Assembly (NCBI RefSeq): GCF_018308945.1
Contig: NZ_CP070501.1
Coordinates: 1,488,001-1,552,000 of the forward strand
Length of the DNA: 64,000 nucleotides
Source: Agrococcus sp. Marseille-Q4369
Lineage (GTDB): Bacteria > Actinomycetota > Actinomycetes > Actinomycetales > Microbacteriaceae
Reading direction: 5' to 3'
Within the stretch, counting starts at the first letter, position 1, and every line of letters begins with the position of its first letter. Below are positions 23,399 to 63,149 of this stretch, in pieces. A program made the position numbers and the translations under genes. The notes beneath the pieces were generated by a model, which was not told the origin of the DNA, did not search any database, and saw only the letters and a program-made list of their open reading frames with translations.

Positions 23399-23410
23399 CA
23401 CCGATCGACC

Positions 23411-23444
23411 GAAGAGGGGCGCACCGCGAGGTGCGCCCCTCTTC
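23411..23444. terminator. Bidirectional hairpin between ppa and M23 gene
   Basis: A perfect 15-bp stem (23411-23425 with 23430-23444) closed by the GNRA tetraloop GCGA, between the convergent stops of ppa and the peptidase. No T-run follows on either strand. Confidence 0.75.
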
Positions 23445-23509
23445 GCGTCTGCACGCTCCGATGGCTGAGCCGCTCCGCGCCCGCAGGGCGCTGAGCGTGT
23501 CGAAGCCCG

Positions 23510-37882: not shown

Positions 37883-38458
37883 CTACCGCTGCGCGGATCG
37901 CGGGCGATACCACTCGTTGGCCGCGGGCAGGAAGAGCAGCACGACGCTGAGGATCGAGATGAGCGAGCCGAAGTTGAGGCCCTGGCCAGAGGAGAGCGAC
38001 GTGACGATGCCGAGCGCGGCGAGCACCGCGAGCACGATGCGCGCCCAGTTCCGGCCCTTCGTGGCGAACAGCAGCACGATGACCTGCGCGACGACGAGCA
38101 CGGCCGCCACGGCGATCAGCATCCCGACCGCGCCGAGCATCCCCGCGTCGCCCGCGCCCGCGAACGCGAGCAGGCCGAGCCCGGCGATCCCGATGCCGAT
38201 GACCCCGAGCGCGACGCCGGCCCACTGGATGCCGAGGCCCCACTTGACGACTGCAGGCATCGGCACGGCCGCGCCGTAGGCGGGCTGGCCGTGCTGCGCA
38301 CCGTGGCCGTACTCGGCGCCCTGGCCGTACGGCGCGTAGCTCACCGGCTGATCGCCGTAGGGCTGGCTGGACGGCTGACCGCCGTAGGACTGGCCCTGCT
38401 GCGGCTGGCCGTAGCGCGGCTGCTGGTGGTCGTCGGGCGCCTGCGCGTCGTGCTGCAT
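37883..38458 (-). CDS. Four-helix membrane protein with Gln/Gly/Tyr-rich N-terminus
   Basis: 191 residues, unknown function. The first 65 residues are low complexity (GQPQQGQSYGGQPSSQPYG and similar), followed by four helices (about 71-92, 100-125, 135-155 and 160-178). Actinobacterial membrane proteins of the DUF4064/Yip-like type often have such Pro/Gln/Tyr tails. It lies between treY and treZ on the same strand, but its own leaderless promoter TAGCCT makes a shared operon doubtful. ATG at 38458. Confidence 0.72.
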   Translation of the reverse strand: MQHDAQAPDDHQQPRYGQPQQGQSYGGQPSSQPYGDQPVSYAPYGQGAEYGHGAQHGQPAYGAAVPMPAVVKWGLGIQWAGVALGVIGIGIAGLGLLAFAGAGDAGMLGAVGMLIAVAAVLVVAQVIVLLFATKGRNWARIVLAVLAALGIVTSLSSGQGLNFGSLISILSVVLLFLPAANEWYRPRSAQR

Positions 38459-38464
38459 GAGGGC

Positions 38465-38470
38465 AGGCTA
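38465..38470 (-). promoter_or_regulatory. -10 hexamer TAGCCT of membrane protein gene
   Basis: TAGCCT, spacer GCCCTC, ATG at 38458. Same hexamer as treZ. Confidence 0.6.
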
Positions 38471-38493
38471 TGCCTCCCCTGTGCCCGAGCGCA

Positions 38494-38694
38494 TCAGACG
38501 CGCGCGCGGCGCGCCGCGGCGGAGGGGCCGAGCACACCCACCAGCAGCCCGACCCCTCCGGCGGCGGCGCGACCGGCTCGGCGTCGCAGTCGATGCGACG
38601 CGAACCGAGTCGCGAGCTCCAGCACGCGAGACCCGCCCATCGTAGTAACAGCGTCTGCGAACGCGCCGAGAGCATCTTCATCCTGAGCGGTCAC
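38494..38694 (-). CDS. Possible small basic protein, 66 aa
   Basis: Open frame with a GTG start that falls inside the left repeat array. The product (ALGAFADAVTTMGGSRVLEL, then an Arg-rich stretch and GGVGLLVGVLG) has one weak hydrophobic segment. Codon use is less G/C-biased at third positions than neighbouring genes, and there is no SD or -10 hexamer at the standard distance. It may be a decayed gene or not coding at all. Confidence 0.25.
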   Translation of the reverse strand: MTAQDEDALGAFADAVTTMGGSRVLELATRFASHRLRRRAGRAAAGGVGLLVGVLGPSAAARRARV

Positions 38695-38803
38695 TTCCGC
38701 CCGTGACCGGTCACTTCCGCCCGTGAGCGGTCACTTCCGCCCGTGACCGGTCACTTCCGCCCGTGAGCGGTCAGTTCGGTCCGTGCGCGGTCGATGCCGC
38801 GCG
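38684..38803 (-). repeat. Left array of 20-bp tandem repeats
   Basis: Six units of exactly 20 bp, first at 38684. The plus-strand unit is TGASCGGTCACTTCCGCCCG, with S alternating G, C, G, C, G. The first four carry the exact core CGGTCACTTCCG (38688, 38708, 38728, 38748); the last two, nearer the centre of the structure, are degenerate. The C-type units contain the perfect palindrome TGACCGGTCA. It is the inverted partner of the array at 38867-38986. Confidence 0.9.
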
Positions 38804-38866
38804 TCCGAGCCGCCGATCGAGCGTTGCGGCGGACGCTGCGTCGGCACGGCGGCGGGCGGGCGCAAC

Positions 38867-38986
38867 TGACCGCTCGAAGACGGAAGCGACCTCTCGAAGA
38901 CGGAAGTGACCGCTCGAAGACGGAAGTGACCGCTCGAAGACGGAAGTGACCGCTCGACGACGGAAGTGACCGCTCGAGCGCGCGGA
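38867..38986 (+). repeat. Right array of 20-bp tandem repeats, inverted
   Basis: Six 20-bp units starting at 38867 with consensus TGACCGCTCGAAGACGGAAG. The core CGGAAGTGACCG, the reverse complement of the left-array core, is exact at 38901, 38921, 38941 and 38961; units at both ends are degenerate. CGGAAGTGACCGCTC (15 bases) is shared exactly with the inverted left array. It ends ten bases before the treY stop codon (38996), so a treY transcript would read it first and could pair it with the left array into a long hairpin with regular bulges. Confidence 0.9.
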
Positions 38987-38995
38987 CGTGAGCGG

Positions 38996-41320
38996 TCAGG
39001 CGTCGGCGCGCGTGAGGAGCGCGACCGGCAGCGTCGAGAGGAGGTCGGCGAGCCTCGTCTCCCCGCCGCGCAGCTCCTTCGTCGTCAGCAGCTCGCGCCA
39101 GCGGCCCTCGGGCAGCTGGATGGTCGTGTCGCCCCAGCCGCCGCGCTCGGCGAGCCCGATCGGCATGCGCGTCGCGACTGCGATCGCCCCGCCGCGGTCG
39201 AACGCGATCGCGTGCGCCGCCGCCTCGCCGTGCGGCAGGATCGGCGCGTAGTCCGCGAAGCGCTCGGGGTGATCGCGGCGCAAGCGCAGCGCCTCGCGCA
39301 CGAGCCGCGTCTTGGCGACCTCGAGGTCCCACCTGCCCGACAGGGGCGAGCGCGCGGACTCGCGCAGCGCATCCATCCGCTCCCAATCGATCGGGCGGCG
39401 GTTGTCGGGGTCGACGAGCGACTGCTCGAGCGCCTCGGAGCCCTGGTAGACGTCGGGAAAGCCGGGGATCGTGAGGCTCAGCAGCTTCGCGCTCAGCACG
39501 TTCGCGCGGAAGCCCGCGTCGGTCGCCTCGAGGAACGCCTCGACGTCGCGGCTCGCGGGCTCCTGCAGCACCTGCCGCACGAGCTCGGTGAGGTTGGCCT
39601 CGAACTCCGCGTCGGGGGCCGTCCAGTGCGTGATGTCGTCGGCCTCGCGCGACGCCTTCTCCATGTAGGCGAGGAGCCGCTCCTCGCTCGCCGGCCACGC
39701 GCCGACGATCGCCTGCAGCAGCAGGTTGACGAAGGGCCGGCCCTGCTTGGGCGCGAAGACGAGCAGCTTGTCGAGCAGCGCCTCCCACTCGCCCGGCACC
39801 TCGGAGATGGTCGTGATGCGCGCACGCACGTCCTCGCCGCGCTTCGTGTCGTGGGTCGAGAGGGCGTTCATCGCGAGCGGCCACTCCTGCTGGCGCTGCG
39901 CCATCGAGGTGTGGAACTCCCCGACATCGACGGAGAAGACCTCGGGAGCGCCGCCCACCTCATTGAGGCTCGTGAGCCTCGAGTAGCGGTAGAACGCGGT
40001 GTCCTCGACGCCCTTCGCCATCACCATGCCGCTCGTCTGCTGGAAGCGCAGCGCGGCGGGCTGCTCGGGGTTGCCGAGCACCGGGAGCAGCGCGTCGATC
40101 GTGTCGGCGAGGTCGGGCCGGTGCTGCTTGGCGAGCTCGGCCGCGCGGCCGAGGTGGTCGCGCCCCTCGGGCAGGTAGGAGCGGTAGACGGGGAAGCACG
40201 CGAGCAGCTCGGCGATCGCGTCGGCGGCGTCGACCGGCGCGCCCCGCTCGCCCCACGCATCCGCCGCGCGCACCTCGCGTTCGAGCCGCAGCACCTCGGC
40301 GCGCAGGATGCCGTCGGCGATGCCGCGCTTCGTGCCGTGGATCATCTCGGCCCAGTCGACGCGCTCGCCGCCGCGCAGCCGCGCGTCGAGCGCGTCGAGC
40401 GGCTCGGCCGCGGCGGGGTCGGTGAGCACGCGGTCGATGAGCCCGAGCGTGTCGTAGCCGGTCGTGCCGGCGGTCGCCCAGCGCGGCAGCTCCTCCCCCG
40501 GCTCGAGGATCTTCTCGACGAGCACGAACGCGCCGCCGGTGAGCCGGTCGAGGTCGTCGAGGTAGCCCGCGGGGTCGCGCAAGCCGTCCGGGTGGTCGAC
40601 GCGCAGGCCCTGCACGAGCCGCTCGTCGAACCAGCGCGCGATCTCGGCGTGCGTCGCCTCGAAGACCTCGGGCAGCTCGACCCGCACGGCGGCGAGCGTC
40701 GAGACGGCGAAGAAGCGACGGTAGTTCAGCTGGTCGTCGCCCTGCTTCCAGTGCCCGAGCCGGTAGTGCTGCCGCTCGAGCACCTCGTGCGGCGTGCCCT
40801 CGCCGGTGCCGGGTGCGATCGGCAGCCGCGTGTCCCAGTACCGGAGCGCCTCGCCGCCGTCCTCGATGGCGAGGTGGCCGACGGTGCCGTCCTCCGACCA
40901 GTCGTCGTCGCCGACGATCGGCAGCAGCAGCTTGCCGCCGCCCGCGTCCCAGTCGACGTCGAAGTACGGTGCTATCGCGCTCTCGCGCCCCTCTCGCAGC
41001 AGCTGCCACCACCACGCGTTGTGCTCGGGCACCGCGACGCCCATGTGGTTCGGCACGATGTCGACGAGCACGCCCATGCCGAGCCTGCGCGCCTCCTGCG
41101 CCACCGCATCCAGCCCCTCGGAGCCGCCGCGCGACGCGTCGATCCGCGCGTGCGAGACGACGTCGTAGCCGTGGTTCGAGCCGGGCTCGGCGTCGAGGAT
41201 CGGCGAGAGGTACACCCAGTCGACCCCGAGGTCGGCGAGCGCCTCGAGCCGGGCGGCCGCGTCGAGGAGCGTGAACTCCTCGCTGATCTGCAGTCGGTAC
41301 GTGCTCTGCGGCGCGCGCAC
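38996..41320 (-). CDS. treY: Malto-oligosyltrehalose synthase
   Basis: Turns the reducing end of glucans into an alpha,alpha-1,1 linkage. 774 residues. STYRLQISEEFTLLDAAA at the N-terminus, LSPILDAEPGSNHGYDVV (about 41-58), DIVPNHMGV, catalytic groups in LRVDHPDGLRDP, LVEKIL, and ALSTHDTKRGEDVRAR, all as in TreY. The GTG at 41320 is used with SD GAGGAG overlapping the glgX stop; the gap is eight bases, so glgX and treY form one operon. The stop is directly followed by the inverted repeat arrays. Confidence 0.95.
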   Translation of the reverse strand: MRAPQSTYRLQISEEFTLLDAAARLEALADLGVDWVYLSPILDAEPGSNHGYDVVSHARIDASRGGSEGLDAVAQEARRLGMGVLVDIVPNHMGVAVPEHNAWWWQLLREGRESAIAPYFDVDWDAGGGKLLLPIVGDDDWSEDGTVGHLAIEDGGEALRYWDTRLPIAPGTGEGTPHEVLERQHYRLGHWKQGDDQLNYRRFFAVSTLAAVRVELPEVFEATHAEIARWFDERLVQGLRVDHPDGLRDPAGYLDDLDRLTGGAFVLVEKILEPGEELPRWATAGTTGYDTLGLIDRVLTDPAAAEPLDALDARLRGGERVDWAEMIHGTKRGIADGILRAEVLRLEREVRAADAWGERGAPVDAADAIAELLACFPVYRSYLPEGRDHLGRAAELAKQHRPDLADTIDALLPVLGNPEQPAALRFQQTSGMVMAKGVEDTAFYRYSRLTSLNEVGGAPEVFSVDVGEFHTSMAQRQQEWPLAMNALSTHDTKRGEDVRARITTISEVPGEWEALLDKLLVFAPKQGRPFVNLLLQAIVGAWPASEERLLAYMEKASREADDITHWTAPDAEFEANLTELVRQVLQEPASRDVEAFLEATDAGFRANVLSAKLLSLTIPGFPDVYQGSEALEQSLVDPDNRRPIDWERMDALRESARSPLSGRWDLEVAKTRLVREALRLRRDHPERFADYAPILPHGEAAAHAIAFDRGGAIAVATRMPIGLAERGGWGDTTIQLPEGRWRELLTTKELRGGETRLADLLSTLPVALLTRADA

Positions 41321-63015: not shown

Positions 63016-63039
63016 GCCCGCGCGGCCGCGACTCCCAGC

Positions 63040-63099
63040 GGGTGCGCTCCCGCCGCCGGGGTGCGGGCATGCCGCCACCCCGGCGGCGGGAGCGCACCC
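63040..63099. terminator. 24-bp perfect inverted repeat between kinase genes
   Basis: Arms 63040-63063 and 63076-63099 are perfect 24-base complements. The 12-base loop contains the palindrome GGCATGCC (63066-63073). It starts 25 bases after the stop of kinase 1. The stem is almost pure G/C and has no T-run. Best explained as a strong terminator separating the paralogues. Confidence 0.75.
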
Positions 63100-63149
63100 G
63101 TCGCCGCGGACTCGGCTCACCGAGCGCGGCGATCTGGTCGAATGGCCGT

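Follow-up and report, generated by a model that had tools for sequence, protein, structure and literature searches.

The facing 20-bp repeat array behind treY in Agrococcus as a likely solo site of a Vsr-fold nuclease

Among the described systems that join an enzyme gene to short repeats, REPIN/RAYT stands closest to the locus reported here. The accessible parts of two sources describe one distinct enzyme gene per flavour, adjoining its repeats, together with dispersed extragenic inverted doublets whose centres are less conserved than their arms, and occasional tandem arrays (PMC3116915, PMC8266576). From the enzyme side, the EDxHD homing endonuclease I-Bth0305I is reported, in the part of the source available, to dimerise on its target, which spans nearly 60 bp (PMC3943268). 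The DUF559 domain and a Vsr-like fold are found in Caulobacter VsrA, which is discussed as acting in mismatch repair and as linked with a methyltransferase, and the portion of that report at hand makes no mention of repeats (PMC12907096). The MTES_1575 REase domain is described, in the accessible part of its source, within a very large multi-domain protein (PMC3710099).

We analysed a double repeat array behind treY in an Agrococcus genome (G000, a single 2.74-Mb contig), within a stretch of 64,000 nucleotides referred to as the window (G000:C1:1488001-1552000). With a probability of roughly 60%, we read it from sequence comparison as a solo copy, in the form of a facing array, of the repeat owned by a Vsr-fold (DUF559, EDxHD-like) nuclease, in a REPIN/RAYT-like partnership. 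The tie between the repeats and the nuclease gene is invisible from the window alone. In our literature searches, which left subscription papers mostly outside and so do not establish absence from print, DUF559 was nowhere joined with inverted repeats or with repeats in actinobacteria. Likewise, within a search of the same reach, none of the papers linking REPIN, Vsr, DUF559, AbiEi, REP elements and EDxHD describes this partnership. The 12-base core of the repeat gave one match, in the available part of a paper about screening proteins in mammalian cells.

The double array behind treY

The element consists of two facing arrays of exactly 20-bp units, 57 bp apart. The left arm (38684-38803, minus strand) has six in-register units: the outer four (starting at 38684, 38704, 38724 and 38744) carry the 12-mer CGGAAGTGACCG exactly, and the two inner units (38764 and 38784) are degenerate. 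The right arm (38861-38980, plus strand) also has six in-register units (38861, 38881, 38901, 38921, 38941 and 38961), with the exact 12-mer in the four outer units and two altered inner units. Thus, all units lie exactly 20 bp apart in both arms, and eight of the twelve carry the exact 12-mer, four per arm. The sequence-only reading had described two facing arrays of six strictly 20-bp units, with four exact cores per side and degenerate inner units on both sides, all of which the unit alignment bears out; the end it had placed at 38986 moves inwards, as the last clear unit ends near 38980. The left arm does alternate two unit types, TGAGCGGTCA and TGACCGGTCA, as proposed there, but the perfect palindrome TGACCGGTCA is limited to two units of this one arm (38704 and 38744, within 38704-38753). 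The centre between the arms (38804-38860) contains neither a nuclease gene nor a clear unit, which defines the solo form. With TRF scores of 176 and 201, the arrays rank third and second among the 31 rows of the window. A coding repeat could be ruled out because a 20-bp period does not preserve the reading frame.

The gene treY (malto-oligosyltrehalose synthase; 38996-41320, minus strand; NCBIfam TIGR02401, E 2.7e-240; start from the codon-usage gene caller) has its stop codon at 38996-38998, and its 3' end abuts the right arm. It shows 97% identity to treY of Agrococcus pavilionensis and A. lahaulensis. Downstream of the array and outside the element lies a gene of 191 amino acids in the same direction as treY (37883-38458, minus strand), for which Pfam and NCBIfam searches gave no family. 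Elsewhere in the window, an exact search found its longest facing pair at 63039-63100, whose perfectly matched inverted arms of 25 bp enclose a 12-bp loop, and a perfect 16-bp hairpin with a 4-base loop is located at 23410-23445.

The treY-strand RNA of the element (38680-38998) folds at -218 kcal/mol with a z-score of -10.1, and none of 100 shuffled sequences was as stable, confirming the previously noted capacity for a very long hairpin. Such a fold is what one would expect if the facing arms were two-way transcription terminators or protectors of mRNA 3' ends, the long hairpins being kept by selection on RNA. However, we detected no intrinsic terminator (a GC-rich stem followed by a T run) in 38400-39100, where no T run follows the stem.

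Copies across the genome and the genus

In the G000 genome, the 12-mer occurs in 54 copies at 10 sites, with none for the reversed control. A genome-wide search thus finds many unrelated sites, yet the spacing is not random: copies within an arm are separated by multiples of 20 bp, and nine of the ten sites have two facing arms, the remaining one (L063) having a single arm. The mobile repeat family put forward by the sequence-only reading therefore stands as a repeat family, with these 10 sites and more in congeners, but not as mobile in the sense of a transposon. The spacers have a similarity of 0.728 within an arm, 0.428 between the arms of one locus and 0.426 between loci. Since spacers are alike within an arm and no more similar between the arms of a locus than between loci, each arm appears to renew itself locally. 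The arms of one locus often differ in core, and there is no sign of exchange between them, as they do not share spacers. Slippage would give the same spacer pattern if the arrays arose by neutral, functionless tandem duplication, but a single core at 10 sites, the facing geometry, the tie to a nuclease and the copies in trans all speak against that explanation; already disfavoured by the G002 and G129 genomes (see below), it is scarcely credible.

A 20-bp array behind treY was found in only two of the 20 treY-bearing genomes, G000 and G015; among the 20, G020 is cut short by its contig end after 496 bp. A treY fragment 95% identical to ours in G022 has no array behind it. The absence from 18 of the 20 treY-bearing congeners led us to reject the operator or iteron for treY that the sequence-only reading had considered. 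Against it, too, a gene 3' end lies on at least one side of 29 of 30 array loci according to the gene caller. These 30 loci come from six genomes, with orthologs counted separately and genes taken from the codon-usage gene caller, leaving aside L077 (another order) and L102 (contig end). Of these, 19 lie between convergent genes, 10 between tandem genes and one between divergent genes, compared with 56 convergent among 319 background pairs.

Together with the stable fold, this preference for convergent genes (and, for the G002 pairs described below, nine convergent and five tandem of 14) supports terminators or 3'-end protectors. Yet the missing T run, the absence of an array at treY in most congeners, the different cores and unrelated spacers often found within one locus, and the recurrence of one exact motif at unrelated sites, differing by nuclease lineage and flanking the nuclease gene, make this explanation unlikely. 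Hairpins in transcripts may have an additional role.

All six G015 loci tested pair with G000 loci, giving six shared positions. Two of these carry another motif class in each species: L068 is GTGACC in G000, whereas its counterpart L093 in G015 is GGCGCC, and L064 is GTGACC in G000, whereas L101 in G015 is GGCGCC except for one outer unit. The comparison thus reveals solo arrays gained, lost or changed in class at the same place between species. Outside the genus, G091, from another family of the same order, was the sole genome of 75 with the exact pair pattern; its locus L077 (6026-6085) contains three CGGAAGTGACCG units in 20-bp tandem.

Within the arrays, outer units are nearer to the consensus than inner units in 34 of 47 cleaned arms, with the reverse in 11. 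This test was repeated on the cleaned arms because the list of all 59 arms with five or more units, where the closeness is 0.843 for outer and 0.763 for inner units, contains cross-strand artefacts. Three species share an orthologous site (L062, L074 and L313) at which GGCGCC units clearly lie outside GTGACC units in both arms. Among 32 loci, we counted eight mixed in-register arms, six with GGCGCC outside, all from that orthologous site in three species, and two with GTGACC outside (L101 and L314, one unit each). In L066 and L069, GGCGCC units lie outside but out of register. We dropped a general rule of "tree rings" after this count of 32 loci. Because the in-register GGCGCC-outside layering is confined to one site and L101 and L314 show the opposite, outward growth of the arrays is a mere hint.

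A nuclease gene between facing repeats

In four congeners (G006, G012, G019 and G022), a gene of about 293 amino acids resides between two facing arrays about 1 kb apart. The copy in G000 is an open frame at C1:449004-449882. The copy in G006 (L070, 6313-7193) is broken into two frames, and that genome retains many arrays (49 pairs). The C-terminal part of the protein matches DUF559 (Pfam PF04480) above the curated cut-off; the MTES_1575 REase domain (PF18741) has the best Pfam E-value, yet its 27-29 bits remain below the cut-off of 38.2. An NCBIfam search of the nuclease returned nothing. A profile search matched the solved nuclease 3hrl (E 2.9e-4); a weaker match (E 0.03) was to 3r3p, a mobile intron protein that we take to be I-Bth0305I. 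Residues E189, D221, H238 and D247, of the EDxHD type, are conserved at 0.99, 1.0, 0.95 and 1.0 among 96 sequences. The N-terminal part bears a weak similarity to AbiEi, presumably a wHTH protein, in two of three proteins (E 0.004 and 0.0097); the gene calls at L089-L091 revealed no AbiEii partner gene between the arrays.

This N-terminal similarity bears on a broader operator model, in which the nuclease's N-terminal part or another regulator would bind the repeats and control the neighbouring genes and the nuclease gene. The palindromic 10-bp cores, spaced two helical turns apart, agree with such binding. On the other hand, repeats also lie past the stop codon of the nuclease, and a divergent arrangement, with the repeats at two promoters, occurs in only one of the 30 array loci. 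We regard this model as quite improbable.

In 18 of 24 Agrococcus genomes, the nuclease gene lies between two neighbours pointing at it, presumably a response regulator and a thioesterase-like gene. No copy was found at that locus in five genomes (G002, G003, G010, G013 and G016), and in G015 the contig ends inside an array at this locus. Just past the response-regulator stop at the usual nuclease locus, G010 has a facing pair around GCCGAGCTTCCCCGA (L222, G010:C111), resembling the flank repeat TCGAACTTCCCCGAA of another G000 nuclease, L139. All 24 Agrococcus genomes contain at least two matches to the nuclease. No relative was found in viral contigs, and we rejected a phage or plasmid origin, as the plasmid (five records) and phage (one record) relatives are all less than 60% identical.

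The repeats track the nuclease within Agrococcus. By TRF, 20-bp arrays flank the close ortholog on both sides in 13 of 14 genomes, one arm per side, the fourteenth being G015, cut by the contig end. Pairs of GTGACC- or GGCGCC-type units, counted including the arrays beside the nuclease gene, are present in 13 of the 14 close-ortholog genomes and in none of the 10 others; G011, the remaining close-ortholog genome, has the GTGGCC type. Placed on the nuclease tree, in which several forks are weak, the array class requires two changes for three classes in 13 rows, the minimum, and none of 200 shuffles was as low. The class is not strictly set by the present nuclease, as this rule fails in two genomes. 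G000 has its nuclease flanked by the GGCGCC class, whereas the array at treY belongs to the GTGACC class, and GTGACC-class pairs outnumber those of its own nuclease class by 70 to 20, under unequal mismatch limits. G020 shows the reverse mismatch, with a GTGACC nuclease and 13 versus 37 pairs. Other flank motifs also occur in the genus: the repeats on either side of the nuclease paralogs L142 (G010) and L146 (G006) have a period of about 32 bp and a GTCACGACACGCCG core in place of the 20-bp units, and several distant Agrococcus copies (L149-L152) share a CCGGTACC core, a further motif class.

We then compared the flanks of more distant nuclease loci. The sample, a subset of all matches, comprised the best matches of each search and 20 hand-chosen ones; from 105 loci, four duplicates and two with short flanks were dropped. 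Gene-specific inverted flanks at a score of at least 16 occur in 57 of the 99 loci, but in none of the 171 mismatched pairings and at a single one of the 400 random positions; the other 42 loci have no inverted flank at this threshold. By group, the counts are 25/31 for Agrococcus copies of at least 44%, 7/16 for other Agrococcus copies, 14/26 for other Microbacteriaceae and 11/26 for other orders and classes. Exact flank matches of at least 15 bp were found in 43 of the 99 loci, versus 5/786 mismatched pairings and 6/540 random positions. After removing the Agrococcus copies of at least 44%, 23 loci with an exact repeat of at least 15 bp remained, and 17 of them have a complete facing pair of equal spacing in each flank, a count made without a control. 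The spacing is 36-44 bp, start to start, in 10 of the 17 and ranges over 17-53 bp in the others.

Copies in trans were sought in two genomes, G002 and G129. The G002 motif GCGTGTCAGSTTGTTG has 32 matches, compared with four in the control, and 30 of these are arranged as 15 pairs with a spacing of exactly 38 bp; the G002 nuclease gene has a motif pair on each side. Across 14 of the 15 pairs, identity is 0.93 in the arms, 0.47 in the 22-bp centres (0.28 after shuffling) and 0.43 in the left flanks. No target-site duplication was seen by eye in the printed pairs. In G129, which belongs to another genus, the nuclease's own repeat has 29 matches versus none in the control, and 28 of the 29 copies have a facing partner at exactly 36 bp, compared with 3 of 29 for the outward control. 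Both genomes therefore contain scattered inverted doublets of the same repeat that adjoins their nuclease gene, and Agrococcus has arrays.

One of the G002 solo pairs lies where other Agrococcus species carry the nuclease, as would be expected of selfish homing, with solo pairs as cleavage sites and the nuclease gene entering by recombination that uses the repeats as homology. The EDxHD-type residues and the 3r3p profile match (E 0.03) fit this scheme, and the dimerisation of I-Bth0305I on a target of nearly 60 bp, as given in the available part of its report (PMC3943268), close to the 54-61 bp pairs here, leaves a homing-type reading open. However, distant members show no single split site but an entire pair on either side of the gene. 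The close ortholog is also found at one and the same place in at least 18 of the 24 genomes, from which we infer that spread of the nuclease gene is rare. Homing is accordingly very doubtful.

Proposed partnership and comparison with known systems

At the level of sequence, the comparison shows that the repeats flank the gene, are specific to each gene, recur in trans with fixed geometry in two genomes, and agree in class with the nuclease tree. We favour a partnership in which the nuclease gene, elsewhere in the genome, lies between its own facing repeats, and repeats of the same kind also occur solo, mostly at gene 3' ends. The nuclease would recognise the facing repeats as a dimer, and its C-terminal part might nick or cut at them. 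Repair synthesis or recombination could then duplicate units, so that arrays would be lengthened, maintained and occasionally spread. At treY, the array probably represents an older motif class that was left over and is still near the consensus, because it is GTGACC while the G000 nuclease is now flanked by GGCGCC.

More broadly, and at somewhat less than even odds, these loci may represent an actinobacterial class of elements built on a solitary Vsr-fold nuclease that evolves together with facing repeats of its own, a partnership of enzyme and sites without enzymatic kinship to REPIN-RAYT. Such an enzyme would sustain and lengthen its own sites in trans, with one motif per gene, and arrays of an old motif, such as the left-over at treY, would be kept after a change of specificity. 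Many of the genomes searched contain several solitary nucleases of this kind, and we found no description of their role in this form. If they do own dispersed repeat sites, the arrays would allow motif classes to be compared between species one site at a time, and Agrococcus would offer a convenient model for recognition, array growth and motif switching.

With regard to a classical transposon or MITE, which has terminal inverted repeats, a target-site duplication and a copied interior, the centres of the G002 pairs reach an identity of 0.47 and the arms 0.93. The conserved E, D, H, D pattern of the nuclease and its match to the 3r3p profile suggest a likeness to EDxHD homing endonucleases such as I-Bth0305I, but it stands outside any intron or intein, has a conserved position in at least 18 of the 24 genomes and has dispersed repeats in trans. 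With Caulobacter VsrA, as far as the available part of its description goes, it has the DUF559 domain and probably the Vsr-like fold in common, whereas VsrA is discussed as an enzyme of mismatch repair (PMC12907096). Unlike the very large protein described in the accessible part of the MTES_1575 report, it is a 293-aa gene between repeats (PMC3710099).

REPIN/RAYT (REP-TnpA, "REPtron"), as portrayed in the source parts available, shares the anatomy found here, including one enzyme per motif and doublets in trans, whereas the Agrococcus clade differs in its 20-bp facing arrays. The enzymes differ, a DUF559/Vsr-like nuclease here and a Y1 (HUH) tyrosine transposase there: Pfam gives only DUF559/MTES_1575 for the repeat-flanked gene, with no Y1 tyrosine transposase match. 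No GTAG or similar tag was seen by eye on the printed units and pairs. Given the other enzyme family and the absence of such a tag, the element is not a member of REPIN/RAYT. If these nucleases own dispersed repeat sites, they would constitute a second, enzymatically unrelated case of the kind known from REPINs and their transposases.
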